Shown here one piece after another: positions 2,932-18,000 of a stretch of 22,070 nucleotides of DNA. Below the pieces are notes generated by a model, which saw only the letters and a program-made list of their open reading frames with translations, ran no database searches and had not been told where the DNA came from. Numbering within the stretch: position 1 is the stretch's first letter; every line of letters starts with the position of its first letter. Position numbers and translations under genes: made by a program. The stretch comes from a virus. The DNA lies in the IMG/VR virus record IMGVR_UViG_3300011116_000748, positions 1 to 22,070 of that record; one strand, written 5' to 3'.

Positions 2932-5025
2932 ATGGCAACAAGAATGCAACAGCGTAGAGGTACTGCAGCGCAGTGGATCTCTACAAACAGTGGTAATGGT
3001 CCAATCCTCAATGCTGGTGAAATCGGCTGGGAGTCAGATACTAATAAATTTAAAATTGGTGATGGCACAAATACCTGGGCAGCACTTGATTATTTTGCTG
3101 ACATTAACTCAACAGTCAACCCAGCATTTGGTTCAAGCATCACATTTGAAGGTACTACAGATAACGCATACGAAACAACTCTTCAGGTAACAGACCCAAC
3201 GGCTGATCGTACAATTACACTTCCAAACGTAACAGGAACAGTTATTACAACTGGAAACCTTTCAGACATTACAGACATTGGAGTATTTACTTCAACAATC
3301 GTAATGGAAGGCTCATCAGCAGATGCCTATGAACTTACTCTTTCAGCAGGAAACCCTACGGCTGATCGTACAATTACTTTCCCTGACTCAACAGGAACAG
3401 TTGCCCTAATAGAAGATCTTAACTCATCTCTTGGAACTGTTCTTGAGACATCAGATCTTTCAGTTACAGTTGCAGAACTTAATATTTCAGGAAATCTACT
3501 TGTTCCTAGTGCATCTATTATTCTTGAAGGTACTGGAGCAGATGACGCAAACGAGACAACTTTAACTGTTACAAACCCAACTGCTGATCGTACAATTACA
3601 TTTCAAGATGCAACAGGAACAGTAGTTCTTAGAGATTCAACAGACACTCTTACAAATAAGTCAATTTCACTTGGCTCAAACACAGTCACATCAACACTTG
3701 CTCAGTTAAATACTGCAGTATCTGATGCTGACGTAGCCTCTCTTGCAGGTACTGAAACACTCACAAATAAAACAGTTAATTTAACTTCAAATACACTTAC
3801 TGGAACAAAAGCACAATTTAATACTGCAATGTCAGATGCAGATTTTGCTACACTTGCAGGAACAGAAACTTTAACAAATAAGACTTTAACATCTCCAGCA
3901 ATTAATACACCTACTGGAATTACAAAGACAGATGTTGGTCTTGCAAATGTTGATAATACAACAGATGCAAATAAGCCAGTATCAACTGCAACACAGACAG
4001 CACTTGACCTTAAGGCAAATCTTTCTGGACCAGCATTAACTGGAACTACTACAGCAGTTAATTTAACAGTCTCTGGAGATTTAACGGTAAATGGAACAAC
4101 AACAAATATTAACTCAACAAACCTTGTAGTAGAAGATAAAAACATTGTTCTTGGAGATGCAGCAAGCCCAACAGATACAACTGCTGATGGTGGCGGTATC
4201 ACATTAAAGGGAGCAACAGATAAGACATTTAACTGGGTAGACGCTACAGATGCTTGGACTTCATCAGAACACATTAACCTTGCTTCTGGAAAGGCAATAT
4301 ACCTAAATGGTACATTACAAACTGCTGCAACAGAAACCCTTACAAATAAAACAGTTGCTTTAGGTTCAAATACAGTATCAGGAACTCTAGCACAATTTAA
4401 TACCGCAGTTACAGATGCTGACTTTGCATCTTTAGCGGGTACAGAAACTTTAACCAATAAAACTTTAACTAGTCCAGTATTAACTACTCCAGCACTAGGA
4501 ACACCAGCATCTGGAACACTTACAAATGCTACAGGTCTTCCACTAGCAACTGGTATTTCAGGTTTTGGTACAGGGGTAGCAACATTTTTAGCAACACCTT
4601 CATCATCAAACCTTCTGTCAGCAATAACAGATGAAACTGGAACTGGATCTCTTGTATTTTCTACAAGCCCAACACTTGCTACACCTATTATTACACAGGC
4701 TCAGGCAACTCCATCTTTTACTTCTAATGCTTATACACTAGTTTCTGGAGATGCTGGTAAATTGCTTCTTGCTTCTAACTCAACAACAGCAGGAACAGTA
4801 AGTATACCAACAGATGCAACCACTAACTTTGCAGTTGGAACTGTGATTACTATTCTTCAAACTGGCTCTGGTCAGTTAACAATTCAAGCAGCATCATCTG
4901 GAACTACTACTCTTACATCAACTGGAGCAACTGCTGCTTCACCAAAGTGTAGAGTACAAAACTCTGCTATTACAATTGTAAAAACAGCAGCAAATACTTG
5001 GTACGCAATGGGAGATCTTTCATAA
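2932..5025 (+). CDS. Tail fibre protein with MTD-like N-terminal module, 697 aa
   Basis: A second large fibre or receptor-binding protein. The ATG has the strong site GGAGGAG at 2919-2925. Residues 1-55 ([11 protein letters not shown]...[21 protein letters not shown]) form the small module seen at the N-terminus of many phage fibres and of the major tropism determinant. Three beta units ending PTADRTIT follow (about 67-110, 121-160, 195-235), related to the single copy in the fibre at 285. Next are repeats around ETLTNKT.....[18 protein letters not shown], a [11 protein letters not shown]...SDxLK-like helical neck variant ([11 protein letters not shown]), the PALGTPASG...[13 protein letters not shown] block and a C-terminal beta domain ending [10 protein letters not shown]. 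It is Ala/Thr/Ser-rich. Its stop overlaps the next start (TAATG). Role well supported by architecture; the target is unknown. Confidence 0.88.
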
Positions 5026-5810
5026 TGAGAATACTTGGGGTTGTATCATCATCTGCAAAAGGCGCTCCTGGAGCACCAACTATTGGAACAGCAACAGATG
5101 TTGGAACAGGACGTGCATTCAACAACGGTTCTGCAACAGTAACATTTACTGCTGGATCTGGAGCGGTAGCAACATCATTTACTGCAACATCTAGTCCAGG
5201 TGGATATACAGGAACTGGAGTATCTTCACCAATTACAGTAACAGGATTACAGTCTAATACTGCTTATACATTTACAGTAACTGGAACAAATGCATCTGGA
5301 ACTGGTTTAGCATCTGCTGCTTCTAATTCTATTACTGCTACTACGGTTCCAGCAACAATGTCCGCACCAACACCAACTGCTGGTGTTAATTCAAACTCTA
5401 TTGCTTTTACCGCCCCAGCAAATGGTGGATCTGCAATTACATCATTTACAGTTACTGGCAGTGATGCTACTACTGGATCAGGTGCTACTTCTCCAATTAC
5501 TATTGCTGATACTGGTGGAACTTCTCAAACTTATACAATTACGGCAACAAATGCAAATGGAACATCGGCTGCCTCTCCTGCATCTGGGTCTATTACTACT
5601 TTATCACCATTCTTCCCTCCATTCTTCCCGCCGTTTTTTCCATTCTTTCCTCCATTCTTCCCTCCATACTTCCCTAATTTCTATGCTTGCGGATGTCAGG
5701 TTTTCTCTACATATTGTGATGGATCTTCCCTTAGAGGAGTTAGATGGGATCCATGTAGTGGTGCGCCACAGGGTCAGGGCTGTAGCCAACCTAATTTTGG
5801 GCCGTGCTAA
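5025..5810 (+). CDS. Two-Fn3-domain protein with Phe/Pro-rich spacer and Cys-rich tail, 261 aa
   Basis: Starts at the ATG in a TAATG overlap with the fibre gene; GGGAG lies at 5010-5014. An ATG at 4998 would add nine residues but lies inside the fibre gene. Residues 18-107 and 108-193 are two fibronectin type III-like beta domains (TVTFTAGSG...SPITVTGL..NTAYTFTVTGTNASGTG, here split: SPITVTGL, NTAYTFTVTGTN), common on phage virions. Residues 195-217 are almost pure Phe and Pro in FFPP units. The last 40 residues hold six Cys (222, 224, 231, 244, 253, 261) and end on Cys. No signal peptide is seen. I infer a surface or tail adhesin whose aromatic/proline segment and cystines are exposed or packed in the particle. 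The Pro-rich part lies 0.7 kb upstream of six prolyl-hydroxylase-like genes, a suggestive but unproven link. Confidence 0.75.
   Translation: MRILGVVSSSAKGAPGAPTIGTATDVGTGRAFNNGSATVTFTAGSGAVATSFTATSSPGGYTGTGVSSPITVTGLQSNTAYTFTVTGTNASGTGLASAASNSITATTVPATMSAPTPTAGVNSNSIAFTAPANGGSAITSFTVTGSDATTGSGATSPITIADTGGTSQTYTITATNANGTSAASPASGSITTLSPFFPPFFPPFFPFFPPFFPPYFPNFYACGCQVFSTYCDGSSLRGVRWDPCSGAPQGQGCSQPNFGPC
5607..5675 (+). repeat. FFPP-encoding repeat
   Basis: Twenty-three codons, P195 to P217 of the Fn3 protein, encode only Phe and Pro apart from one Tyr. FFPP recurs at a four-residue step with one shortened unit. Codons vary (ttc/ttt, cct/cca/ccg), so the protein sequence rather than the DNA appears to be maintained. 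Confidence 0.9.
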
Positions 5811-5815
5811 TATGA

Positions 5816-5821
5816 TATACT
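5816..5821 (+). promoter_or_regulatory. Extended -10 promoter (TGA-TATACT)
   Basis: TATACT preceded by TGA, just after the Fn3 gene stop. Exactly 20 nt separate it from the next ATG, the same gap as at two other promoters in the window. No clear -35. Confidence 0.55.
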
Positions 5822-5841
5822 TTAATAAAGGAGAAAAATAA

Positions 5842-6216
5842 ATGGCTACTTCTATAGTGGTGTATGTTGGTGACGAAATAGTTGCGACTGTTACACTTCC
5901 AAGTAATCCAATTTCATTTTACCAAAAAATACTTGATGCTGTTAAGAACAACCCAACAATGGTTGATATAACAAATATGGAAAATTATCCAGTTGAAGGT
6001 ATGAGATTTGAAAATAATGTTTTTATTGAAACAGAAGAACTTAAGTTTATAAATAATCCAGGTCTATCTAACTCAACTACTTTTGCATTTGTTGTTGATG
6101 GTATTTATGTTGCTACTGAAGGTTTTGACACTTCAGAAAGCCCAATGTTTATATCAGCGTACCAAAGTAATCCAAGATTTGAAGTTTTAGAAAATGTTGA
6201 AAGTATTTATTTTTAA
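5842..6216 (+). CDS. Small protein of unknown function with an internal duplication, 124 aa
   Basis: Starts at ATG with AAAGGAG at 5827-5833 and its own -10 element. I do not recognise a named family. The two halves resemble each other: VGDEIVATVTL...FYQKILDAVKNNPTMVDITN near residues 9-47 (VGDEIVATVTL, then NNPTMVDITN) and VVDGIYVATEGF...MFISAYQSNPRFEVLEN near 83-119 (VVDGIYVATEGF, then QSNPRFEVLEN). Each half has a beta hairpin, a helix, then NP plus a beta strand. Short acidic proteins of this 'VVDGE-A...QSNP' style occur in phage structural regions, so a small virion or chaperone protein is possible. It has no catalytic motif, no membrane segment and no Cys. It precedes the zinc-binding-type gene by 27 nt and is probably co-transcribed with it. 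Confidence 0.7.
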   Translation: MATSIVVYVGDEIVATVTLPSNPISFYQKILDAVKNNPTMVDITNMENYPVEGMRFENNVFIETEELKFINNPGLSNSTTFAFVVDGIYVATEGFDTSESPMFISAYQSNPRFEVLENVESIYF

Positions 6217-6243: not shown

Positions 6244-6504
6244 GTGAGTGAAGATAAATCACCATGGCAAAAATACAAAGATAATATTGAAGAATATAAA
6301 AAAAATTTAGGCGATACAAGACCCTGGGATTTAATAAATCCAAATGTAGAAAAGTCTTCTGAAGAAGAAGCCTCAAGAAGGTTTGAAATATGCAGATCTT
6401 GTCCTGAATTAACAAAACGCACAGAGCAGTGCAAAAAATGTGGATGTTTTATGGCGGGTAAGGTTAGAATAAAAAAATCTTCTTGTCCTATAGGTAAATG
6501 GTAA
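6244..6504 (+). CDS. Small six-cysteine zinc-binding-type protein, 86 aa
   Basis: Starts at GTG with a GGGGG tract at 6229-6233. The N-terminal half is charged and helical. The C-terminal half carries Cys50, Cys53, Cys63, Cys66, Cys68 and Cys81 in RFEICRSCPEL...QCKKCGCFM...SCPIGKW. I recall small phage proteins with the same CxxC...CxxCGCFM...CPxGKW pattern, of unknown function, some near 2-oxoglutarate oxygenase genes. The Cys spacing fits binding of one or two metal ions, probably zinc. It could contact nucleic acid, act as an adaptor or, given its place directly before six iron enzymes, assist a metalloenzyme; none of this is shown. It has no promoter of its own that I can see and probably shares the one at 5816. 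Confidence 0.8.
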   Translation: MSEDKSPWQKYKDNIEEYKKNLGDTRPWDLINPNVEKSSEEEASRRFEICRSCPELTKRTEQCKKCGCFMAGKVRIKKSSCPIGKW

Positions 6505-6535: not shown

Positions 6536-7243
6536 ATGTATAATGCAGAAGAAAATCCTTGGTTTACAAAAGACAGATCCGAGTCTATATCAAAAAGAAT
6601 AGATAGAGTATTCAATGACATAGATGTGTTCAACCCAGCACTTGGGTTAAATATTTATAAAAATGCTATAAATAAAGAGGATATCTCTTGGATTATTGAT
6701 ACTCTTGAAAATAATCTTTCTAACGGGGCAGAGTATTCATGGAAGGAAGCACAGGTAACAAATTCTAATCAACCAATTAAGGCTGCAAGAGACTGTTCAG
6801 ATTTTAAGTTTAGCAATAGAACATTAGGTTCAAAAAATGACTCAAACAAAGATTTATTTGATGTTTATGATAAAACATATAACATTGTAAAAAAGTGTGT
6901 TGATGACTATGCATCTTATTGGGGAATTGGTGTTGTTTATTATGAAGCATTTAATTTTGTAAAGTACGAAGGCGAAGGCCAAGAGTTTAAAATACATGCA
7001 GACCATGGACCACACTACAATACTACAGTTTCAATAGTTGTCTACCTTAATGATGATTATAAGGGTGGAGAATTATATTTTCCAAGACTTGATAAACTTA
7101 CATACGCTCCCAAAGCAGGAGATATTGCAATATTTCCATCTAACTATATATATGAACACGCATCATTGCCAATGAAATCTGGAATTAAATATTGTGTAGT
7201 TATTATGTCAGACATAAATCTTTTAGGTCATTCAGGAAAATAA
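6536..7243 (+). CDS. 2-oxoglutarate/Fe(II) oxygenase 1 (prolyl-4-hydroxylase-like), 235 aa
   Basis: A non-haem iron dioxygenase that would couple oxidative decarboxylation of 2-oxoglutarate to hydroxylation of an unknown substrate. The double-stranded beta-helix core is clear: His154-Ala-Asp156 and distal His208 form the iron triad, and Lys218, ten residues after the distal His, is at the 2-oxoglutarate carboxylate position. Between them lies the family signature VVYLNDDYKGGELYFP and the PKAGDIAIFPSN strand. The N-terminal 130 residues hold WKEAQ and a RDCSDFKF segment shared only with the next oxygenase, so the two form a sub-pair. The start ATG follows a GGGGG tract (6527-6531). Every Arg codon I checked is AGA, unlike the CGT-rich reductase gene downstream. 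Family assignment is sure; substrate is not. Confidence 0.95.
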   Translation: MYNAEENPWFTKDRSESISKRIDRVFNDIDVFNPALGLNIYKNAINKEDISWIIDTLENNLSNGAEYSWKEAQVTNSNQPIKAARDCSDFKFSNRTLGSKNDSNKDLFDVYDKTYNIVKKCVDDYASYWGIGVVYYEAFNFVKYEGEGQEFKIHADHGPHYNTTVSIVVYLNDDYKGGELYFPRLDKLTYAPKAGDIAIFPSNYIYEHASLPMKSGIKYCVVIMSDINLLGHSGK

Positions 7244-7249
7244 ATAATG

Positions 7250-7255
7250 TATAAT
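7250..7255 (+). promoter_or_regulatory. -10 element (TATAAT)
   Basis: TATAAT with ATG immediately before it, so the TGN extension is displaced by one base. It is 20 nt before the proposed TTG start of the second oxygenase, matching the gap at 5816 and 6510. Confidence 0.5.
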
Positions 7256-7275
7256 AAAAATAAAAGGGGATTAAA

Positions 7276-7944
7276 TTGAATACAGAAAATAATGCAAAAC
7301 AGCCTTGGAGCAGTTATGAAGAAATATCTCCAGGGATATTTGTTTATCATGATGTTTTGCCAAAAGAACTAGACCTTATAAATAGACTTGAATCAGTTTT
7401 AAGTAACAATGCAAAATACGCTTGGCAAGAAGCCTTTGTTGGGTATAGACAAAGAATGCCAGAATACAGAGACTGCGTTGACTTTAAATTTAAAAAAACA
7501 GATATGCAATATGATAAGTCTGAAGAATCTATAAAACTTCAAGAGATTTGGCAAGATTGTTTTGATAGACAAAGTTTAGCGGTACAGGATTATTGTCACA
7601 AATTTAATATAAATGGTTTAAAATATTGGGAAGCATTCAACTTTATTAAATATGAAAAAGGACACCACTTTATGGAACATCATGACCATGGGTTTTCATA
7701 TAACTGTACTGTTTCACTTGTTGCATATTTAAATGATGATTTTGAAGGTGGAGAACTTTTCTTTAGACTGCAAGGAATAAACTATATTCCAAAAGCAGGA
7801 GATGTTGTTTTATTTCCTTCTAATTTTATGTATCCTCACCAAGCAAAGGTTGTTCATTCTGGAACAAAATATTCATTAGTTACAATGCTTGACTATAGTG
7901 AAAAGTTTCATACTCCTGAAATGTATAAAGAAACTGGATCTTAA
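7276..7944 (+). CDS. 2-oxoglutarate/Fe(II) oxygenase 2 (prolyl-4-hydroxylase-like), 222 aa
   Basis: Same enzyme type as the gene before it and plainly its duplicate: shared RDC.DFKF, YWEAFNFIKYE, DHG..YN.TVS, YLNDDFEGGEL, PKAGDV..FPSN and SGTKYS segments. Iron ligands are His135, Asp137 and His188; Lys198 takes the 2-oxoglutarate anchor position. The cluster HHDHG around the first ligand is unusually His-rich. The start is a TTG with GGGGA at 7266-7270; no ATG occurs until residue 61, the N-terminal sequence aligns with its paralogue, and the TTG keeps the 20-nt promoter gap, so TTG is preferred. The stop overlaps the next ATG (TAATG), implying translational coupling with the unknown protein that follows. 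Substrate unknown. Confidence 0.94.
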   Translation: MNTENNAKQPWSSYEEISPGIFVYHDVLPKELDLINRLESVLSNNAKYAWQEAFVGYRQRMPEYRDCVDFKFKKTDMQYDKSEESIKLQEIWQDCFDRQSLAVQDYCHKFNINGLKYWEAFNFIKYEKGHHFMEHHDHGFSYNCTVSLVAYLNDDFEGGELFFRLQGINYIPKAGDVVLFPSNFMYPHQAKVVHSGTKYSLVTMLDYSEKFHTPEMYKETGS

Positions 7945-8657
7945 TGTCAGTTATAAAGTGTTATAAAAAAACACAAATAACACTAGATATTGCTCCAATG
8001 TCTATTAAAAGAGACTGGATGGATGAAACTCCACAAGGACATGCATATAGATGCCATCCAGTAACCTCTGCCAATGTTATTGGCTGGAACATCTCTTGCC
8101 CAATAGATGTAAGTTTTATTTGGAACGGTATAAATGATACAAGTGCAAATAATGTAACGATATTAGAAGGTGAACAATTTACTCAAACAGGAAGAGGACA
8201 ATCTACTGTTAGTTTTAATACAAGGTTTATGTTAAGAACAGATAGCCATATGAGCGTTCTTACAATTAATCCACAAAACTATTTTAATCCTGATATAGAA
8301 GTGGTATCTTCTTTAATTTCAACATCTTTTTTAGATACAGACTTTCCATTAGCAATTAAATGCAAAACAGCAAATAAAAAAATAGTTATTAAAGCAGGAA
8401 CTCCAATAGCAACAATAATACCGATATCTCTAACCTCTTTACAAAATGAATCTGTGGAGATGTTTAACTTTGAACCCACACAAGAATATTTTGAAAAGTT
8501 AAGGTCATATGGTGAAGCAGCACAAAAGATTAATCAATCTGGAGAATGGACTGACTGGTATAGAAATGCAGTAAATGAAAAAGGAGAGACTATTGGATCT
8601 CATGAAGTAAAAAACTTAAAACTTAGCGTAATCGATAATACAGGTAAAATAAAATGA
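7944..8657 (+). CDS. Unknown protein, possibly DUF6065-like, 237 aa
   Basis: No catalytic signature recognised. The sequence looks like a compact beta fold: CHPVTSANVIGWNISCPIDVSFIWNG near residues 37-62 (key parts CHPVTSANVIGW and CPIDVSFIWNG), a region of alternating strands, then KAGTPIATIIPISL near 150-165 and a helical charged tail. The 'N..GW.I..P.D..F.W' and 'GTPIA...P' pattern is one I associate with the uncharacterised family DUF6065, but I could not search to confirm. The next gene has the same order of elements (ILTTGYNLLTPCDIEFF, then PAGTPYAQLLPF), so the two are probably ancient duplicates. Start and stop both overlap neighbours, so it is translated with the oxygenases. It may be a partner, carrier or substrate-binding protein for them; this is inference. 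Confidence 0.7.
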   Translation: MSVIKCYKKTQITLDIAPMSIKRDWMDETPQGHAYRCHPVTSANVIGWNISCPIDVSFIWNGINDTSANNVTILEGEQFTQTGRGQSTVSFNTRFMLRTDSHMSVLTINPQNYFNPDIEVVSSLISTSFLDTDFPLAIKCKTANKKIVIKAGTPIATIIPISLTSLQNESVEMFNFEPTQEYFEKLRSYGEAAQKINQSGEWTDWYRNAVNEKGETIGSHEVKNLKLSVIDNTGKIK

Positions 8658-9379
8658 AAGTAATTAAATTTATAAGTAATAGACCTTGGCTAACAAAAGA
8701 AAGCAAGTCAAAGCCAGAACCTGTTTCAAAGACAATTCCAGAATGGTATAGCGATGCTGATAGATTTGCAAAAATGGCAGATGGACAGTATTGGGTTGGT
8801 CCAGATAGTGGCAAAATTCCTACATGGAAGGCTTGTCCAGCAATTCTTGATATTCTAACAACTGGATATAATCTTTTAACTCCATGCGACATAGAGTTTT
8901 TTTTAGATAGTGCTGGTCAAATCGATGTAAATATTAAAGATCCATTATATAAAGATTTTGTTACAAAAAGAACACCTATGCCACAATTTTATCACCCAGA
9001 AGGATATTATGAGTACCATTTTGCATGGATGCCTGACTGGGCAGTGAGCGTTCCAGATGGATATAGCGTATTATATGTATCTCCATTTAATAGGTATGAT
9101 CTTCCGTTTATGACTGTATCGGGAATTATTGATAACGATAAAGTAAAATTACCTGGATCCTTTCCATTTTTTATAAGACATGGGTGGACTGGAATACTTC
9201 CAGCAGGAACTCCATATGCCCAACTTCTTCCATTTTTAAGAGAAAACTGGAAATCTGAAATAGACATTCCAACGGTATCAGAAATGACAAAACACAATAT
9301 GGATAATAGCAAAAGGTATCGTGTTCCAAATGGTGGGGTTTATAAAAAAGAAGTCTGGACAAGAAGAATATATGAATGA
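8654..9379 (+). CDS. Unknown protein related to its upstream neighbour, 241 aa
   Basis: Starts in an ATGA overlap with the previous gene. Visible features: an N-terminal KTIPEWYSDADRF segment, WKACPAILDILTTGYNLLTPCDIEFF split by a turn (parts WKACPAILD and GYNLLTPCDIEFF), an EYHFAWMPDWAV segment, PDGYSVLYVSPFNRYDLPF, a SGIIDNDKVKLPGSFPFF region with a short hydrophobic run, and PAGTPYAQLLPFLRENWKSE near the end. Similar proteins with 'IPEWW', 'CP...D...TGY...P.D' and 'GTP.AQ..PF.R..WK' occur in phage metagenomes and cyanophages as far as I recall, without known role. The fold is predicted all-beta and rich in aromatic residues, compatible with a jelly-roll or cupin, but no metal-binding HxD or HxH motif is evident. 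Function unknown; co-expression with the oxygenases is the only clue. Confidence 0.7.
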   Translation: MKVIKFISNRPWLTKESKSKPEPVSKTIPEWYSDADRFAKMADGQYWVGPDSGKIPTWKACPAILDILTTGYNLLTPCDIEFFLDSAGQIDVNIKDPLYKDFVTKRTPMPQFYHPEGYYEYHFAWMPDWAVSVPDGYSVLYVSPFNRYDLPFMTVSGIIDNDKVKLPGSFPFFIRHGWTGILPAGTPYAQLLPFLRENWKSEIDIPTVSEMTKHNMDNSKRYRVPNGGVYKKEVWTRRIYE

Positions 9380-9386
9380 GAAATGG

Positions 9387-9392
9387 TATAAT
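9387..9392 (+). promoter_or_regulatory. Extended -10 promoter (TGG-TATAAT), leaderless start
   Basis: TATAAT preceded by TGG; the favoured ATG of the next gene begins only 7 nt after the last T, where transcription would start. This implies a leaderless mRNA for the longest oxygenase operon. Confidence 0.6.
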
Positions 9393-9398
9393 AAAAAT

Positions 9399-10064
9399 AT
9401 GACAGAAGAAATTCAAAATAAAAATATGGTTAAATTTGGTTCTATAACACCACCTGGGTTTTTTGGATCAGACCCAAAACATATTCAGGCTAGAGAAAAC
9501 TTTATGACAAAAGAAGAACATGAGTTTTTATTAGATGCTGCAAAAAAAATAACAATCTGGGATGTAACTGAAACACACTACAATGAAGACGGGGTTGTTA
9601 CATACGACTCAGATTATTGGAAAGATAGGGTAGCAACTGCTCCAACTTTAAATAAATTAGATCCTAAAATATCTATTATTATTGCAAATATGGTTAAAAG
9701 ATTTAAAAAAGATGTAGATACTTATTTTGAAGTAGATGCTAAAGAAACAAGTCCAGCAATTGTAAGATGGCTTCCAGGACAACTGCAGATGCCACATGCT
9801 GATAAACAACTGTCTAATGGAGAACCAAATGATTTTCCTTGGTTTGATCTAGCAGGATTGTTTTATCTTAATGATGATTATGAAGGTGGAGAATTATATT
9901 TTCCAAATCAAGGAATTGAGTTTAAGCCAAAGCCAGGAGCAGCATATTTTTTCCCAGGCGACTTAAACTATGTTCATGGAGTTCGTGAAATTACTAGTGG
10001 TATTAGATATGTAATTCCATTCTTTTGGACAATTCAAAAACATACTGGAAGTAGGCAACCATAA
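9399..10064 (+). CDS. 2-oxoglutarate/Fe(II) oxygenase 3 (prolyl-4-hydroxylase-like), 221 aa
   Basis: Third member of the oxygenase set. Iron ligands are His133, Asp135 and His193; Arg203 replaces the Lys of the first two at the 2-oxoglutarate site. Signature segments are PGQLQMPHADKQ, LFYLNDDYEGGELYFP, KPKPGAAYFFPGD and SGIRYVIPFFW. The substrate lid between the first ligands and the core strand (LSNGEPNDFPWFD) differs from oxygenases 1 and 2, suggesting another substrate or site. The ATG at 9399 has no Shine-Dalgarno sequence but sits where a transcript from the TATAAT at 9387 would begin, so a leaderless start is proposed. Upstream in-frame ATGs at 9321 and 9372 lie in the previous gene or upstream of the promoter. 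The next gene follows after 1 nt. Confidence 0.93.
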   Translation: MTEEIQNKNMVKFGSITPPGFFGSDPKHIQARENFMTKEEHEFLLDAAKKITIWDVTETHYNEDGVVTYDSDYWKDRVATAPTLNKLDPKISIIIANMVKRFKKDVDTYFEVDAKETSPAIVRWLPGQLQMPHADKQLSNGEPNDFPWFDLAGLFYLNDDYEGGELYFPNQGIEFKPKPGAAYFFPGDLNYVHGVREITSGIRYVIPFFWTIQKHTGSRQP

Positions 10065-10065
10065 A

Positions 10066-10812
10066 ATGAATCTAAATAATAAAAATAGAATAACAAAAGA
10101 TATTGTTGTTTATGAAAACTTTATTGATGCAGAAACTGCTGCAAAACTTGTAAAAGTTTTAGATAAGCATGTAGAAGTTGGAACAATATCCTGGATGCCA
10201 ATATCTTTTTATGAGTCTTATTCTTCAGTATTGCCAGAAGATAATGATGAGCATGTTATTAGCGAAGGCTTGCCAAGCGATATATTTTCACAAATGAAAA
10301 AAGGAATTATTGATGCTGTTGCAAGTGTTCATGATCTTGACCCAAAAATAATTTCTCAAATTGGATATCACACACAAAAGTGGGAGCCAGGAGCATATGC
10401 AAGAAAGCATTCCGACAATACAGACGAACATGGTCACTCTGGTGCTTTTACAAGAAGTAGATACGCAGCCTTTCTATATTTAAATGATGACTTTGAAGGT
10501 GGAATGTTGAAATTTCCAGACCAAAAAATAAGTTTAAAGCCTAAAGTTGGAATGCTTGCTGCATTTGACGGGGGATTTAACAATATGCATGAAGTAACTC
10601 TTATTACCAATGGCGTTAGATATACTATTGGTTCTTTCTGGGATGACAGAGAAGAAGATGCATATCCACAAGAATTAAGAGATGCTTGGGCAGAAGAAAT
10701 GAAAAAAATTAGAGATGCACAAAAAATTGAAAAAGAAGAATGGCAAGAAATTATAAAAGAAGGATATAAACTTGACATGAACGGCAATAGATATAAGATA
10801 GAAGATTTGTAA
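10066..10812 (+). CDS. 2-oxoglutarate/Fe(II) oxygenase 4 with C-terminal helical extension, 248 aa
   Basis: Fourth oxygenase. Iron ligands are His115, Asp117 and His175, with Arg185 at the 2-oxoglutarate position. Core motifs: WEPGAYARKHSDN, AFLYLNDDFEGGMLKFP (Met replaces the usual Glu of GGEL), KPKVGMLAAFDGG and NGVRYTIGSFW. The insert after the first ligands (TDEHGHSGAFTRSR) is rich in His and polar residues. After the catalytic core come about 55 highly charged residues, probably a long helix, absent from the other five; it could mediate oligomerisation or binding to a partner. It starts 1 nt after the preceding stop with only a weak ribosome site, so translational coupling is likely. Substrate unknown. 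Confidence 0.93.
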   Translation: MNLNNKNRITKDIVVYENFIDAETAAKLVKVLDKHVEVGTISWMPISFYESYSSVLPEDNDEHVISEGLPSDIFSQMKKGIIDAVASVHDLDPKIISQIGYHTQKWEPGAYARKHSDNTDEHGHSGAFTRSRYAAFLYLNDDFEGGMLKFPDQKISLKPKVGMLAAFDGGFNNMHEVTLITNGVRYTIGSFWDDREEDAYPQELRDAWAEEMKKIRDAQKIEKEEWQEIIKEGYKLDMNGNRYKIEDL

Positions 10813-10814
10813 AA

Positions 10815-11492
10815 ATGTCTAATATCTTAAAAGAACAATTAAAAAAAAATAACTTTGATATTGAAGAAATTTTTAGTGATGTTCTTTTAGTAGAAAATTT
10901 TTTATCTGAAAAAGAAATATCAGAAATATTTAGCATTATTAACAAAACTACAGAAGAGTCTTGGTCTATAGAATACCATGCAAATCTAAAATCTTTTTGT
11001 ATAGAAAAGTTTGGAAGAGATGATGTAGAAAATTTAGTTGAAGAAGGAAAATTTGAAATAACTCAAAATTGGAAAGATAAAAATCTTAATATCCATAATG
11101 AGGATATTCATAAAGAAATATATAAAAGGTTAAACGATTTATTATTAAAGTCAAATGATAACTTAGAGTTAAGTGGTTTTGCAACTATACAAAGAATGCA
11201 AGAGGGTATTGAGTTAAAGTGTCATACAGATCAAGACACAGACCCCTCAATATGCTATGCAACAATTCTTTATCTTAATGATGAATATTCCGATGGAGAG
11301 TTATTTTTTAAAAATATAGATTTAACTTTAAAGCCAAAAAAGGGATCATTAATAATTTTTCCAGGAACAGAAAAATATCATCATGGAGTCAAGCCAGTTG
11401 GTAAAGGGCCAACAAGGTATGTTTTAGTTGGATTTATTAAAGAAAAAGATTTTTATCAAAAAAACAAATACAAAGGAAATGGAGAAAGATAA
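10815..11492 (+). CDS. 2-oxoglutarate/Fe(II) oxygenase 5 (prolyl-4-hydroxylase-like), 225 aa
   Basis: Fifth oxygenase, the most divergent around the core strand. Iron ligands are His137, Asp139 and His190 (the second His of YHHG), with Arg201 as the 2-oxoglutarate anchor. Core motifs are QEGIELKCHTDQD, ATILYLNDEYSDGELFF (SDGEL where the others have GGEL or GGML), KPKKGSLIIFPGTEKYHHG and PTRYVLVGF. The N-terminal 110 residues are helical, highly Lys/Glu/Asn-rich and AT-rich. The gene starts 2 nt after oxygenase 4 and its stop overlaps the next ATG (TAATG). All catalytic residues are present, so it should be active; substrate unknown. Confidence 0.93.
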   Translation: MSNILKEQLKKNNFDIEEIFSDVLLVENFLSEKEISEIFSIINKTTEESWSIEYHANLKSFCIEKFGRDDVENLVEEGKFEITQNWKDKNLNIHNEDIHKEIYKRLNDLLLKSNDNLELSGFATIQRMQEGIELKCHTDQDTDPSICYATILYLNDEYSDGELFFKNIDLTLKPKKGSLIIFPGTEKYHHGVKPVGKGPTRYVLVGFIKEKDFYQKNKYKGNGER

Positions 11493-12178
11493 TGAATAAA
11501 ACAATTTTAGAGGAAAAAGTATACTACTATGAAGATGGTGTAAAAAACTTTGACCAACTAATGAAAACTATTAGTGAATTAGATGAACTAAATAACAATG
11601 AACGCTGGGAAAATTGGACATCATCTGGCGATAAAAAATTTATATATGGACAAACCAAAACATTTGATTTAAACCAAATAGAAAGAATGGATGAACCATA
11701 TAAGGAAAAAATGTATTATATTTATAAAACAATTATGGATTCTTTTTATGAAGTTTGCAAAGACTATGCAGAATCAATAGGCGATAAAGATGAGCCAAGA
11801 CTGTTTCCAGTATTTAATATTAAAAAATATGATGTTGGTATAGGAATGGGAGCACATTTTGATCAACTTGATGGAGACAAAACATTAAGATATTCTTTAA
11901 CTATGTATTTAAATGATGATTTTGACGGAGGAGAGATTTCATTTGTTTTGTCAGACTATGATGGTGTTTCTAAAAAACCACCCTCAGATTTAAACTATAA
12001 TGTTGCTGTAGCAAAAAATCAAATTGATTTTGGAATAAAGCCAAAAGCAGGAAGTATTTTGATTTTCCCATCTGCAGCACCATATTATCATACTGCTCAT
12101 ATTGTAAAAAATAATTTTAAATATATGATCCCAGGACACTGGATTCACAACGGTATGGAATTAAATCAAGGAATGTAA
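11492..12178 (+). CDS. 2-oxoglutarate/Fe(II) oxygenase 6 (prolyl-4-hydroxylase-like), 228 aa
   Basis: Sixth oxygenase. Iron ligands are His122, Asp124 and His200; Lys210 occupies the anchor position, as in oxygenases 1 and 2. Core motifs: GMGAHFDQLDGDK, LTMYLNDDFDGGEISFV, KPKAGSILIFPSAAPYYH and FKYMIPGHW. An insertion of roughly 25 residues (about 154-180) between the GGE strand and the PKAG strand, where the others have a short turn, enlarges the active-site rim. His203 is a second nearby His, but the ten-residue spacing to Lys210 picks His200 as ligand. The ATG overlaps the previous stop and has GGAG at 11481-11484. Substrate unknown. Confidence 0.93.
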   Translation: MNKTILEEKVYYYEDGVKNFDQLMKTISELDELNNNERWENWTSSGDKKFIYGQTKTFDLNQIERMDEPYKEKMYYIYKTIMDSFYEVCKDYAESIGDKDEPRLFPVFNIKKYDVGIGMGAHFDQLDGDKTLRYSLTMYLNDDFDGGEISFVLSDYDGVSKKPPSDLNYNVAVAKNQIDFGIKPKAGSILIFPSAAPYYHTAHIVKNNFKYMIPGHWIHNGMELNQGM

Positions 12179-12183
12179 AATTA

Positions 12184-12852
12184 ATGAAAACTGCAATAGT
12201 AACTGGAGCAAGCAAAGGTGTGGGGCTGGCAACAGTTAAAAGGCTATCTGAAAATGGCTATAGGGTCATTGCAGTTTCAAGAAATCTATCAGAAGTCTCT
12301 AAACTAGAATCAGAGACTGTTGAGGTTTATCAATTAGACATTACAGACTTTAAAGCAATAAAGTTATTTTTTGAAAAATATAAAGATATCACTTTAGACC
12401 TTTTAGTAAATAATGCTGGGGGTGGGGCTGGACCCACTTACATTATTAATGAGACTCCAGAAAACTTTAGAAAAGCCTATGATATAAATGTAACTGGCCC
12501 CATGTATCTGTCTCAACTGTTTGTTCCATGTATGCAAAAATCTGAATCTGCAACCATAATTTTTGTAACTTCTTTTGGTGGCAAGATTGCATACCGTGGT
12601 GGTGGAAACTATACTAATGCTAAGCGTGGTCAAAGAGGATTGATAGATACAATGAGGCTAGAGTTTCCGCAATATAACATTAAAATAACTGAAGTTTGTC
12701 CAGCAACAATAGATACGCAAGAAGAAAAAAGAGATCAAGCATTAACTGCTGAAGACCTTGCAGAAGCAATTTTTTGGGTTGGATCATTGCCAAGTCATTT
12801 AAACATAAACCAAATAGAAATGTGTCATGTTAGTAGCAGTAAGTATGGATAG
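12184..12852 (+). CDS. Short-chain dehydrogenase/reductase (SDR), 222 aa
   Basis: A classical SDR: Rossmann fold with TGASKGVG (residues 7-14), LLVNNAG (73-79), Asn102, Ser130, and the catalytic pair Tyr143 and Lys147 (YTNAK). Arg33 at the end of the second strand (AVSRN) suggests NADP(H) preference. It is somewhat shorter than the usual 240-260 residues because the substrate-binding C-terminal region is trimmed; the CPATIDT segment after the fifth strand matches the usual PG..T lid. It would interconvert an alcohol and a carbonyl. It lies 5 nt after oxygenase 6 as the last gene of that operon, so it may act on a hydroxylated product, or on a sugar or nucleotide precursor. The reaction cannot be named from sequence. 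Confidence 0.92.
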   Translation: MKTAIVTGASKGVGLATVKRLSENGYRVIAVSRNLSEVSKLESETVEVYQLDITDFKAIKLFFEKYKDITLDLLVNNAGGGAGPTYIINETPENFRKAYDINVTGPMYLSQLFVPCMQKSESATIIFVTSFGGKIAYRGGGNYTNAKRGQRGLIDTMRLEFPQYNIKITEVCPATIDTQEEKRDQALTAEDLAEAIFWVGSLPSHLNINQIEMCHVSSSKYG

Positions 12853-12881
12853 ACAACCTTTGTTTATCTAAAGTGCTAACC

Positions 12882-12906
12882 CTTAAGGATACATCTATAC
12901 CTTAAG
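12882..12906. other. Inverted repeat CTTAAGG/CCTTAAG
   Basis: CTTAAGG at 12882-12888 pairs with CCTTAAG at 12900-12906 across an 11-nt loop, between the SDR stop and the reductase promoter. A third CTTAAG is at 12942-12947. A run of five Ts follows about 10 nt after the stem, so this may be a weak terminator or an operator. AT-rich and only seven pairs long. Confidence 0.35.
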
Positions 12907-12937
12907 TTTAAGCATGTTTTTATTCTTTAAATCATGA

Positions 12938-12943
12938 TATACT
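12938..12943 (+). promoter_or_regulatory. Extended -10 promoter (TGA-TATACT) of the ribonucleotide reductase gene
   Basis: TATACT preceded by TGA, the same form as at 5816. It is 58 nt before the reductase ATG, the longest leader in the window. No -35 seen. The last bases overlap the third CTTAAG, which could be an operator. Confidence 0.55.
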
Positions 12944-12950
12944 TAAGACC

Positions 12951-12969
12951 ACTTTGTAAAACTCAAAGT
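12951..12969 (+). promoter_or_regulatory. 5'-end stem-loop in reductase leader
   Basis: ACTTTG (12951-12956) pairs with CAAAGT (12964-12969) around a 7-nt loop. It begins where transcripts from the TATACT at 12938 should start, so the mRNA would carry a hairpin at its extreme 5' end, possibly protecting it. The ribosome site (GAAAGG, 12989-12994) is left free. Confidence 0.4.
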
Positions 12970-13001
12970 ACTCATCTAAATTTGCTTAGAAAGGTAAATA
13001 A

Positions 13002-15032
13002 ATGTCAGAAGTTTTTTCGTTTCGTCTATCAGAAGAATTTGTAAATAAATATAATAATGTTCCAGCACCATTTGGATTTTCAGATGCTGGATCTAACTCA
13101 TTAGGAGAGATTACATTTATTCGTACATATTCTCGCATGAAAGAAGACGGCACAAAGGAACGTTGGCATGAAGTTTGTCGTCGTGTTATTGAGGGTATGT
13201 ATTCAGTACAGAAGAATCATGCTAAAGATAATCGTTTACCTTGGAATGATAACAAGGCTCAGAAGTCTGCACAAGAAGCCTTTCAAAGAATGTTTGAATT
13301 AAAGTGGACACCACCAGGACGTGGACTATGGGCTTTCGGTACTCCTATGACCATGGAAAAGCGTAACTCTGCAGCCCTACAAAATTGTGCAATGGTATCA
13401 ACAAGAGACATTGATCGCAACGACCCTGGTGCTTTATTTGCTTGGGTAATGGATGCATTAATGCTGGGTATTGGAGTTGGATTTGATACCCTTGGACAAG
13501 ACAAACAAATGTCTATATATGCACCTACTGAGCCAGCATCTATTTATGAAATCCCAGATACTCGTGAAGGATGGGTTGAATCAGTTCGTTTTTTAATTAA
13601 CTCATTTCTTCGCCAAAATCAACCTATTCAAGAGTTTACCTACGATCTTATCCGTCCTCTAGGAGCCCCAATTAAGGGCTTTGGAGGGGTAGCAAGCGGT
13701 CCAGCACCACTTATTGATCTCCATACACGTATTCGCAATGTAATTGGCTCTAGGGCAGGAGAACTATTAGATAGCCGTGCAATTGTAGATATTGTAAATC
13801 TTATTGGTACTTGTGTTGTTTCTGGAAATGTTCGTCGTTCTGCAACTCTTGCACTTGGAACACCAGAAGATGAAGGTTTTATTAATCTTAAGAATCCAGA
13901 AGTATTTCCAGACCGTAACTCCTACGATCCAACAAAACCAGGATGGGCTTGGATGTCAAACAATTCTATATCAGCAACAGTTGGAACAAAATATGAAGAC
14001 TATGTAGATTTAATTGCAGATAATGGAGAGCCAGGTTTTATTTGGCTAGATGTTGCCAGAGAGTACGGTAGATTAAAAGATGCACCAGATTATAAAGATT
14101 CCAGAATCATGGGATTCAATCCTTGTGCGGAGCAGCCATTAGAATCATACGAACTTTGCACACTTGTAGAGGTGCACTTAAATCGTCATGAATCTAAGGA
14201 GGACTTCCTCAAGACATTGAAGTTTGCATATCTTTATGGAAAAACTGTAACACTGATGCCAACACATTGGCAGCAAACAAACGGTATTATGCAAAGAAAC
14301 CGTCGTATTGGAACATCGCTCACTGGGATTGCTTCTTTTGCTGATAACAGTGGACTTCCAGCATTACGTGAATGGATGGATGAAGGGTATCAAAAAATTC
14401 GTCACTATGACCACAAGTATTCTGAGTGGCTATGTGTTCGTGAGTCAGTTCGTGTAACTACAGTCAAGCCTTCAGGATCTGTATCACTTCTCTCTGGAGC
14501 AACTCCTGGAGTTCACTGGGGTCCTGGAGGGGAATTCTATCTTCGTGCTATTCGTTTTGGCAATACTGATCCAATGATGCATTTATTTAAAGCAGCGGGG
14601 TATAAGATTGAAGATGACCTTGTATCAGCAAACACATCAGTTGTATATTTCCCAGTAGCATCTGGACACAAACGTGCAGAAAAACAAGTAAGCCTATTTG
14701 AAAAAATTGGACTTGCTGCAACTGCTCAAAAGTATTGGTCTGATAACGGTGTTTCTGTAACTTTGTCATTTAATAAAGAAGAAGAGACAAAGTTTATTGC
14801 ACCAGCACTTAATATGTATGAAGGACAGTTAAAGGCTGTTTCATTCTTACCAATGGGTAATAAGACTTATCCGCAGCAACCATATACTGAGATTTCAAGA
14901 GAGGCGTATAATGCCTATGTTGGAACAATTGGAAAGATTGATTGGTCTGCAATTTATGACGGTAAAGATAATTTAGATGCTGAGTCTGAAAAATATTGTT
15001 CAACTGATGCTTGCGAGATTAAATTATATTAA
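13002..15032 (+). CDS. nrdJ: Class II adenosylcobalamin-dependent ribonucleoside-triphosphate reductase, monomeric type, 676 aa
   Basis: Reduces ribonucleoside triphosphates to deoxyribonucleotides for phage DNA synthesis, using adenosylcobalamin as radical source. It matches the Lactobacillus leichmannii RTPR type. Cys129 (QNCAM) and Cys386 (ELCTLVE) would form the redox pair; Cys375 and Glu377 in NPCAEQPLE are the thiyl-radical Cys and catalytic Glu, keeping the same 11-residue step to the second Cys as in RTPR; the C-terminal Cys666 and Cys671 are the shuttle pair that passes electrons from thioredoxin. A TVKPSGSVSLLSG segment is the usual phosphate-binding loop. Length is slightly below the 739 residues of RTPR. 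No intein or frameshift is visible. Arginine codons are mainly CGT/CGC, unlike the oxygenase genes. Start ATG has GAAAGG upstream. It depends on host or environmental cobalamin. Confidence 0.96.
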   Translation: MSEVFSFRLSEEFVNKYNNVPAPFGFSDAGSNSLGEITFIRTYSRMKEDGTKERWHEVCRRVIEGMYSVQKNHAKDNRLPWNDNKAQKSAQEAFQRMFELKWTPPGRGLWAFGTPMTMEKRNSAALQNCAMVSTRDIDRNDPGALFAWVMDALMLGIGVGFDTLGQDKQMSIYAPTEPASIYEIPDTREGWVESVRFLINSFLRQNQPIQEFTYDLIRPLGAPIKGFGGVASGPAPLIDLHTRIRNVIGSRAGELLDSRAIVDIVNLIGTCVVSGNVRRSATLALGTPEDEGFINLKNPEVFPDRNSYDPTKPGWAWMSNNSISATVGTKYEDYVDLIADNGEPGFIWLDVAREYGRLKDAPDYKDSRIMGFNPCAEQPLESYELCTLVEVHLNRHESKEDFLKTLKFAYLYGKTVTLMPTHWQQTNGIMQRNRRIGTSLTGIASFADNSGLPALREWMDEGYQKIRHYDHKYSEWLCVRESVRVTTVKPSGSVSLLSGATPGVHWGPGGEFYLRAIRFGNTDPMMHLFKAAGYKIEDDLVSANTSVVYFPVASGHKRAEKQVSLFEKIGLAATAQKYWSDNGVSVTLSFNKEEETKFIAPALNMYEGQLKAVSFLPMGNKTYPQQPYTEISREAYNAYVGTIGKIDWSAIYDGKDNLDAESEKYCSTDACEIKLY

Positions 15033-15067: not shown

Positions 15068-18000
15068 ATGTCTAGCCCATCAAATTTATACGCAGAAAAG
15101 GTTTTTAGTGAACACCCAATGGCTCTTTGGGCACTAGACGATAAACTTGACTACGTTAGCCTTATTTCAGAAGCGCAAAGAAATATACTTACACTTTGGG
15201 ATGAAACAGGCTGTACTCTTTCAGCAGGTACTGGATTAACAGGTGAGCCATTTCTAGATAGTTACACTACAAAAGTTAGTTGTAGCATACCAGTTGGGGC
15301 TACAAATGAGGCTATTTTAAAAAGCCCAGAAATAATGAATTTTCAAGATCTAGACTTAGAACTTGGAACATTTTGTATTGGAACACATTTTTATTCTGGA
15401 AGCGTTTATCTGGAGTCAGTTTCTATAGGGTATGAGTATACAGATACAACAACTTCACAGGTTGTGCAAAACTTAAAAACTTTTAATACCTCAATATCAA
15501 ATCAGTGGGGTTTTATATCTGAGACATTTGAAATACCAAACGAAAATACAAACTTTAAAGTAGTTATAAAGATAGTTACAAATACTGGTGGAGACAATAT
15601 AAATGACTATGAGTTTTATTTTAATGGAATATCTTTAGGTCAGTGGTCTGAAGAATTTAACGTAGTATCTTTAGGTGTATACCCAGAAAGTTTTCCAGCA
15701 GAAATTGAATTAACTACAGGTAGCAGCGTAATTCCAGCACCAGCATATGGAATATCTTCTGATACTGGGTATTATCTTGTAAATGATAATTCTTTGGTGG
15801 CAAAAAATACTGGAGTTCCTTTGGTTTTTGGTGCATCAAATGTTACAAAACTATCGCCTAATATAGATGGAGACCCTTCGTTTATATTTCCTGGTAAAGG
15901 ATTTTTACATGAAAATGGAAGACATAGTGATTACACTGTAGAGTTTTGGGCAAGAATAAACTCAGACTCTAATGACCCTAAAAGAATTTTTGGACCAATC
16001 GCAAGTGAGGATGGACTTTATGTAGAAGGTGGATTCTTAACTCTTTTAATTGGTGGTAAGTTTAGTTCTCATTTTGTTGGAGAATGGTTTAGACCAATGC
16101 TAATCCATATCAGGTTAATTACTGATAATGCTACAGTATTGATTAATGGAGAACAAGTAATATCATTAGACTTTGTTACATCAAACATATCTTTGCCAGA
16201 AATAACTGAAGAAGATTGGCTTGGATTTTATGCTTATACCAATGTAAATCCAATAGAGATTGACTGTGTAGCCATCTACTCATATCAAGTTGCAAATGTT
16301 GTAGCAAAAAGAAGATACGTATACGGTCAGGGTGTGGGATCATCAGAAAGTATTGATTCTGCCTTTAGTGGAACTTCTGCATTTATAGATTATTCTTTTG
16401 CAGATTACACAGCAAATTATAACTACCCAGATTTTGCACAGTGGCAACAAGGATCATTTGACAATCTATCAACAACTGCAACTGCGTTAACAACCCCACA
16501 ATATTCCTTGCCAACAATATTTACTGGAACAAAAACATTGCAAGAACTATACGATGACTCAGATAATATATATCAAAACCTTACTAGTGGATACCTGGGC
16601 ACAGATAGTCACTTTATATCCTTAAACCCAAACTCAACTTGGAATAATGATGGTGCATACATTAACTTTGGAAACTTTAATATTTTAAATTCACAAGTTG
16701 CATGTTTGTATGGAGTCTTTCAAGCAAATAACCAGGGCAGTGGAGGAGATGAAGACGAAGAGGTATTATTTAAAATATATAACCAAAGCACAGGAAACTA
16801 TTTTTCTATTAATGTAGATGGGTTGGATGTTGTATATTCTTTGTATTACTCAGGGACATCTCAAGAAATATATCGTACAGATGAGTTTGAAGTTGGAGAA
16901 CTTTTTGCTGCTGGAATTAATATTCAGACACTTGTAAATACATTTGGTGGAAATCTTGCAACATTCTTTGGTAATCAAAACTCCCTAAGCCTTTATGTTG
17001 GTGGAGATAACTCTGGATCTAAAACCTTTAGAGGCTACATCTTTTCTATTGGATTTTCAACAGAGTTAAACTCAAACTTAATATCCAGTTATTTTGATGA
17101 TAATGGAATTGCTATTATTGATACATATGTGGGTAGTGGAGTTGAGTCATCTGAAAATGCACTAGCACTATTATCACATACGGCAAGTTATACTCTTTTG
17201 CCAACATATGCTTATGGAAGTTTGTTCTTAGATATTGGAGTTTCTGGATACTGGGAAGACTATATGCCACTATCTTATTTTGGACAATATGTTCAAAACG
17301 ATGTTGGAAATTCTTTTTATGATTTAGATTTTTTACAGTTTAATATTGGATACCCATCACCATCAAGCCTACTTGAATCAGAAACAACGGGGTCTTGGAC
17401 ATATGAAGAACTATCTAGTTTATATTCACTTCCGACTCAAAGAACATATCAACAGTTGGACAACTCCCTGCTTACTGGCTGGAACAATTACCAAGATCTT
17501 AAAGAAAAAGCATTAAAGTATTATGAGTATAATACTGAGAGTTCAGCAATTAGAAGTTATGTTACCTTTCAATATATTACTGATGGAGCAAACCTATCAC
17601 AAGATAATTTTACAACAACCATTCCTGCAAAAGAAAATGCAGTAGTTGATGTTTCTGACTATTCTTCTTGGTCAACTACAAAATTTGAGGTTGTTGACAA
17701 TACAATAATTTATCCAAGAAAAGACGTTGACTTTAATAGTTTAGCAATTGTTTATCATCTTGATTTTAATATTCGTGGAATACTAACAAAACCAATACTA
17801 TTAAGAAAACTTGAACTTGCATCACAAGCATTAAACGATAATTCATTTAATCCCATAGGAACAAGGTTTGGAACAGACCTATTTCCATATAAACGCTCTG
17901 GGCTATACTATGATTATAAATCAAATAACCCGTTTAGTATTTATAAGGGAAGCACCCCATACCTATACATGAACAGAACATCTGGAATACAGGTTCGTGG

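Follow-up and report, generated by a model that had tools for sequence, protein, structure and literature searches.

A swappable phage cassette encoding six or more prolyl-hydroxylase-like enzymes and an FFPP-repeat tail protein

Background

A viral prolyl 4-hydroxylase (P4H) was reportedly described by Eriksson et al. in 1999 for PBCV-1, a virus of algae. PBCV-1 has a single P4H, and hydroxyproline was not detected in its virions (PMC7019647). The P4H and hydroxyproline-rich glycoproteins of Chlamydomonas represent a cellular counterpart, in which the enzyme's targets are repetitive proline tracts forming extracellular rods (PMC11015965). Cyanophages encode up to five 2-oxoglutarate (2OG)/Fe(II) oxygenases per genome, for which modulation of 2OG has been proposed (PMC3037559), and the roles proposed so far for the 2OG oxygenases of aquatic phages comprise the 2OG pool, DNA repair and auxiliary metabolism. 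According to a 2012 paper, the prolyl hydroxylases that collagen requires are absent from bacteria and viruses, and collagen-like phage fibres do without prolyl hydroxylation (PMC3368898). The subject of the present analysis is a set of six 2OG/Fe(II) oxygenases (OX1 to OX6) encoded in a 22,070-base stretch of viral DNA (hereafter, the window), which is the complete IMG/VR record IMGVR_UViG_3300011116_000748, together with the adjoining gene for a tail protein bearing a phenylalanine-proline repeat (the FFPP protein).

An initial annotation of the window, made from the sequence alone, singled out the six enzymes against a background in which single oxygenases are common in aquatic phages--a background to be widened, inasmuch as several per phage were already known from cyanophages. 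Here it is reported that these enzymes belong to a swappable cassette of six or more prolyl-hydroxylase-like enzymes located beside the FFPP tail-tip protein. It is probable, though well short of certain, that the cassette hydroxylates the FFPP tract of this neighbouring protein; for the substrate, which the initial annotation had left blank, the FFPP-repeat tail protein next door is the likely candidate.

Results

The FFPP protein is encoded directly upstream of the oxygenase region at positions 5022-5810 (on the plus strand, as are the other genes of the window from TF2 to RNR given below). It contains an FN3 domain (fn3, E 7e-7) and a C-terminal repeat, PFFPPFFPPFFPFFPPFFPPYFP; the FFPP tract, PFFPPFFPPFFPFFPPFFPPYFPNFY, spans positions 5607-5684, and the C-terminus reads PFFPPFFPPFFPFFPPFFPPYFPNF, followed by a cysteine-rich stretch. 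When 80 viral loci were fetched using as anchor U1, a DUF6065 protein encoded between OX2 and OX3, an FFPP tract was found upstream of the oxygenases in 57 of the 57 informative loci, that is, those in which 1.5 kb or more precedes the first oxygenase. Conversely, when viral contigs were scanned with a DNA pattern for FFPPFFPPFF alone, and loci were counted that have an FFPP open reading frame (ORF) and at least 3 kb downstream of it (n = 76), oxygenases were present in 67, within 3 kb in 65, and U1 or its homolog U2 was present in 58. Among control loci obtained with a composition-matched pattern, oxygenases occurred in 1 of 46 (p ~4e-23 versus the FFPP-anchored loci, uncorrected for relatedness). 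Because the control pattern (AAR/GGN) overlaps FFPP on the opposite strand, the control was limited to loci without an FFPP ORF, and in the sole oxygenase-bearing control locus the contig ends within a YFPP/FFPP tract. Searches of whole records for two subsets, mostly picked for short flanks, found PF13640 in 31/41 and 35/42. Moreover, the pairing persists across unrelated N-terminal domains of the FFPP protein, with or without a cysteine-rich end. The neighbourhood first noticed in one genome is strongly conserved in other phages, and the oxygenase genes do not occur independently.

In 257 Gb of genomes from bacteria and archaea, the FFPP pattern occurred on 17 contigs, most of them seemingly in chance frames. 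Four of these contigs have long tracts (by eye, the N-terminus is PASTA-like in three and FN3-like in one) and have oxygenases or DUF6065-type genes nearby, in one case only as a weak U2-like match; these contigs may be of phage origin and have been binned with bacteria. The number of oxygenases correlates weakly with tract length (rho 0.41, p 0.014), a correlation that is uncorrected for relatedness and was not relied on.

In sufficiently long U1-anchored loci the order is OX1-(U2)-OX2-U1-(U2)-OX3-(extra)-OX4-OX5-OX6, usually followed by a short-chain dehydrogenase (SDR) and, in close relatives, then by a ribonucleotide reductase (RNR). The 36 distinct cassettes that are complete from FFPP to RNR encode 4-9 oxygenases each, and some relatives add TauD-type or JmjC/cupin-type proteins. 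Phages picked by portal similarity alone provide a view of how the cassette comes and goes (23 records, each about 17 kb or longer, some of the negatives being short upstream of the portal). Six of the 23 have the FFPP motif, and the same six have at least five PF13640 genes; the other 17 have neither, and no PF13640 match at all bar a single match in one record. Among phages whose portals are 78-95% identical, the FFPP gene and the oxygenase array are gained or lost together. On a portal tree with informative negatives only, seven of seven independent contrasts were concordant (p = 0.016); this final test left out cassette-negative records with too little sequence upstream of the portal (L209, L230, L231, L271 and others) and added further cassette-bearing records, themselves chosen by FFPP or U1. 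It could be argued that the linkage reflects nothing but shared ancestry or the hitch-hiking of neighbouring genes, inasmuch as many of the loci sampled are relatives of one another and raw counts lack independence. This explanation is already disfavoured and is scarcely credible: all seven independent presence/absence contrasts agree, and FFPP protein and oxygenases are again found together where the N-terminal domain differs, as well as on large contigs in which no portal of the window's type was detectable.

The borders of the cassette are sharply defined. In six cassette-negative relatives, the tail genes TF1 and TF2 are followed directly by RNR; in cassette-positive phages, the whole block from FFPP to SDR is placed exactly between TF2 and RNR. 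In the window the left border is TF2 (2932-5025), a tail-fibre gene with an Mtd_N N-terminal domain (PF18454, E 2e-9) and matches to tail PHROGs; the right border, outside the cassette, is the RNR gene (13002-15032), whose product appears, on reading its sequence, to be of the class II type. Counting RNR itself among the cassette genes was considered too, but this was rejected, since it is retained where the cassette is gone. The initial annotation regarded the six oxygenases, a dehydrogenase and two paired unknown proteins as a dedicated modification system; the conserved neighbourhood agrees with this, but the SDR (12184-12852; PF00106, E 6e-41) is optional, being often present but absent from several relatives, and the unit starts at the FFPP gene (5022), which that annotation omitted.

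Other tail proteins were seen in phages related by their portals. In record L251, where FFPP is absent, two divergent oxygenases occur together with another Pro-Phe repeat, SPFGFTPFGFSP; the same record (as L337) encodes, at 666-1931 of the reverse complement, an FN3 protein whose Pro-Phe repeat reads SFTPFGFSPFGFAPAPFGFSPFGFTPFGFSP and whose C-terminal region is Hint-like; this protein is perhaps a second substrate type. Two cassette-negative records, L330 and L333, encode FN3 proteins with long glycine-rich ends (VVAGGGGGG...; for example, L333 4760-5854). Because some negatives bear such glycine-rich FN3 proteins elsewhere, the FFPP tip may be one among several alternative receptor-binding tips.

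The six oxygenases themselves are encoded at 6536-7243 (OX1), 7276-7944 (OX2), 9399-10064 (OX3), 10066-10812 (OX4), 10815-11492 (OX5) and 11492-12178 (OX6); for OX3 a GTG start at 9321 is also possible, and the ATG at 9399 seems more likely from the sequence. In a profile search all six scored above the Pfam cut-off for PF13640 (33-52 bits versus 27), which confirms their initial identification as 2OG/Fe(II) oxygenases. Each likewise has the full set of residues attributed to it: an HxD motif, a distal histidine 52-78 residues on and, 10-11 residues after that, either lysine (OX1, OX2, OX6) or arginine (OX3, OX4, OX5); in OX1 these are H154xD156, H208 and K218. This HxD..H..K/R arrangement is kept in 120 of 120 sampled oxygenases. 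OX1 and OX2 are 42% identical over 199 amino acids, and the other paralogs are about 25-47% identical over partial stretches only. In a tree of 120 enzymes from 17 cassettes--a quick tree with long branches, in which the deep joins between clades are unsure--the enzymes of the window fall into six supported clades, OX1 to OX6 (Shimodaira-Hasegawa-like approximate likelihood ratio test, SH-aLRT, 95-100), accompanied by an optional seventh, and across the 17 cassettes the order of these clades is the same in almost every phage. OX1-OX6 are old, specialised paralogs and not redundant copies. The suggestion of six active-looking, non-redundant enzymes is upheld by six collinear ortholog clades, with activity being predicted.

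Structural comparison of all six had been suggested as well; it was carried out for OX1, whose AlphaFold2 model (predicted local distance difference test, pLDDT, 92.7) has an ordinary prolyl-hydroxylase fold and no collapsed active site. The best structural matches of this model are protein prolyl hydroxylases, namely algal P4H, PHD2, bacterial P4H and PBCV-1 vCPH, with Z about 20-21 to PHD, bacterial P4H and algal P4H; superposition on the algal P4H bound to (Ser-Pro)5 gives Z 20.6 and a root mean square deviation of 2.2 over 177 residues. For the oxygenase family profile, the best PDB matches are B. anthracis P4H, prolyl 3-hydroxylase 1 and PKHD-type hydroxylases. These findings bear on the idea that the oxygenases are host-metabolism genes, acting on small molecules or draining 2OG. 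Such modulation of 2OG has been proposed for the multiple oxygenases of cyanophages (PMC3037559), and an SDR often accompanies those described here. Six conserved, collinear and specialised paralogs are, however, unexpected for a 2OG sink, as is their exact co-occurrence with a tail protein, and the fold of OX1 is nearest to that of enzymes acting on protein prolines; a metabolic role is considered improbable.

In relatives, the FFPP tract reaches up to 144 residues consisting almost solely of F and P. The residues preceding proline in these tracts are FF in 2363 instances, YF in 256, HF in 17 and WF in 7, with no instance of FY, and the tracts use all four proline codons and both phenylalanine codons. 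This position-specific constraint combined with mixed codon use points to selection on the protein, with the caveat that repeats expand by slippage and are not independent. The gene for the FFPP protein sits among tail-fibre genes, its start overlapping the stop codon of TF2, and its product would be a receptor-binding tail-tip protein of the virion. By eye, some FFPP proteins (L115, L116 and L161) run on into a Hint/intein-like domain, an extension that suggests self-processing of the tail protein.

A location among tail genes would also suit a different arrangement, in which the oxygenases modify another tail or virion component--TF1/TF2, the cysteine-rich tip or a virion glycan--and the FFPP protein is a co-inherited structural partner. 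For a repeat built from two residues, six different enzymes are a large number, the cysteine-rich end is common in FFPP proteins (that of the window included), and some cassettes encode proteins that by eye are glycosyltransferase-like. Nevertheless, TF1 and TF2 remain in relatives without the cassette, and it is the FFPP tract that is the constant companion across unrelated N-terminal domains, with or without the cysteine-rich end. Modification of another component is on this evidence rather unlikely, and hydroxylation of the FFPP tract is preferred.

U1 (7944-8657) and U2 (8654-9379) are the paired proteins of the initial annotation, where they were described as unknown; they are indeed paired and homologous to each other, but U1 is a member of DUF6065 (PF19541, 114.9 bits versus a cut-off of 26.6, E 5e-33) and U2 of PHROG 7084. 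In the U1 model (pLDDT 94.7), residues 1-177 have a dUTPase-like fold (Z 11, Foldseek E 7.5e-5), a likeness to the trimeric dUTPases that concerns the monomer fold only; U1 has no dUTPase family match in Pfam at E up to 1, matching DUF6065 instead. Relatives of U1/U2 lie beside cysteine-rich tail proteins in two portal relatives, records in which a PF13640 search gave no match; because of this arrangement, U1 and U2 are suggested to be partner proteins of tail-tip proteins. Bacterial DUF6065 genes, found in 25 of 398 genomes of one phylum, were also considered as a context that might explain U1, and this failed, as no oxygenase was seen within about 1.5 kb on either side. In haloviruses, U2 homologs adjoin thymidylate synthase and DNA polymerase (Halorubrum tailed phage 7, L478 5827-6717). 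These halovirus neighbours hint at a nucleotide-related ancestry of the dUTPase-like family, and U1/U2 may have a nucleotide role.

The same observations could be taken to favour DNA hypermodification, whereby TET/JBP-like oxygenases would act with RNR and dUTPase-fold proteins in making or altering modified nucleotides: U1 is dUTPase-like, RNR is adjacent, halovirus relatives of U2 adjoin thymidylate synthase, and Naegleria TET is among the weak profile matches of the oxygenase family. Yet RNR stays where the cassette is absent; the Tet_JBP profile is touched by two proteins, at best with 13.1 bits versus a cut-off of 34.9; OX1 is structurally closest to protein prolyl hydroxylases; and the block borders on a tail-fibre gene and follows a tail protein in its occurrence. 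DNA hypermodification is accordingly considered improbable.

The genes of the oxygenase region are arranged head to tail, with overlaps of 1-4 bases at OX2/U1, U1/U2 and OX5/OX6. Between the FFPP gene and OX1 are two small genes. The first (5842-6216), without a PHROG match, occurs in near relatives only; the second (6244-6504) encodes a DUF6171-like protein with four clustered cysteines (PF19668, E 4e-7), and ORFs similar to it were found in 39 loci, often likewise between the FFPP gene and OX1, with some relatives placing it elsewhere and on the opposite strand. Inside or beside the FFPP cassette of L339 are, by eye, two glycosyltransferase-like proteins and an FkbM-like methyltransferase (reverse complement 5284-6093, 12358-13089 and 13090-13803); the former could glycosylate hydroxylated residues. 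A radical-SAM-like CxxxCxxC protein adjoins the FFPP cassette of L166 (9171-10184, minus strand). Between RNR and the portal region, the window encodes a 1214-residue protein (15068-18712) that has neither a Pfam nor a PHROG match and is kept with or without the cassette. Against cultured phages, megablast with the whole window gave no match and tblastn with U1 no homolog. WhiB is encoded in 10 of the 16 related (mostly large) records searched, and the portal resembles those of Streptomyces phages (~45%); aquatic actinobacteria are the likely hosts.

Discussion

The six oxygenases would thus supply the enzymatic half of an exchangeable cassette for maturation of the tail tip, the substrate being the adjoining FN3 tail protein with its C-terminal [F/Y]-F-P-(P) repeats. 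During infection, OX1-OX6 would use O2, Fe(II) and 2OG to hydroxylate the FFPP tract at differing positions. The target would most likely be proline (yielding 4- or 3-hydroxyproline), at least for some of the enzymes, with others possibly acting on aromatic residues or flanking positions. U1 and U2, with their dUTPase-like fold, are proposed to be partner proteins, and further elaboration of the new hydroxyl groups may fall to the SDR and, in some relatives, to glycosyltransferase-like proteins. At its receptor-binding end, the tail would then have a hydroxylated rod that is both soluble and stiff. Because the oxygenase block adjoins the FFPP tail-tip protein, this suggests that these phages finish their own receptor-binding tip chemically. 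A more detailed version, offered tentatively, is that the six oxygenases and their dUTPase-fold partners successively hydroxylate both the prolines and the phenylalanines of the FFPP rod, and that the cassette is exchanged against other tips.

Several points weigh against hydroxylation of the tract. The substrate is inferred from gene linkage. The prolyl-hydroxylase fold was seen in OX1, the only one of the six that was modelled, and likeness of fold to prolyl hydroxylases does not fix the substrate, PHD2 moreover being over-represented in the PDB. A tract of two residues has no obvious need for six enzymes, some of which may act elsewhere on the tail. Some FFPP proteins, chiefly long fibres with an internal tract, are without PF13640 on contigs of 28-38 kb that are themselves fragments. 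An earlier, 24-row contrast test weakens to p = 0.06 when scored by any oxygenase rather than by at least five, owing to the two divergent oxygenases of L251, and the kinship of many sampled loci lessens the weight of raw counts.

With a defined candidate substrate that is co-inherited with a defined set of enzymes, the question of what such oxygenases do in phages becomes testable. If the proposal is true, bacteriophage tail tips are heavily hydroxylated, in a manner comparable to plant hydroxyproline-rich proteins and contrary to the statement cited above (PMC3368898), and enzymes that modify aromatic-proline repeats could be drawn from one compact cassette. If both proline and phenylalanine are hydroxylated, both the post-translational chemistry and the receptor-binding material would be of kinds not known in phages. 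In the open-licence full-text literature no paper was found that contains the string FFPPFFPP or mentions DUF6065, nor was a published description of the cassette.

Among known systems, PBCV-1 vCPH (PDB 5c5t) is similar in being a virus-encoded 2OG oxygenase with a P4H fold, matched by the OX1 model and proposed to act on proline-containing peptides; it is, however, one enzyme, whereas the phages described here have at least six paralogs and a dedicated repeat protein. The Chlamydomonas P4H (PDB 3gze, 2jig), solved with a (Ser-Pro)5 repeat, is the top-ranked Foldseek match of OX1, but is eukaryotic and lacks both the FFPP repeat and a multi-gene cassette. The cyanophage 2OG-Fe(II) oxygenases (PHROG 61; T4-GC 104/240/412/611) belong to the same superfamily and PHROG, but are at best ~30-39% identical and have had other roles proposed for them. 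Collagen-like phage tail-fibre proteins share the presence of a proline-rich repeat in a tail protein, although their repeats are of the Gly-X-Y type. As far as could be checked, then, the chemistry is of a known kind, and what is new is the phage cassette, its repeat and the number of its enzymes.

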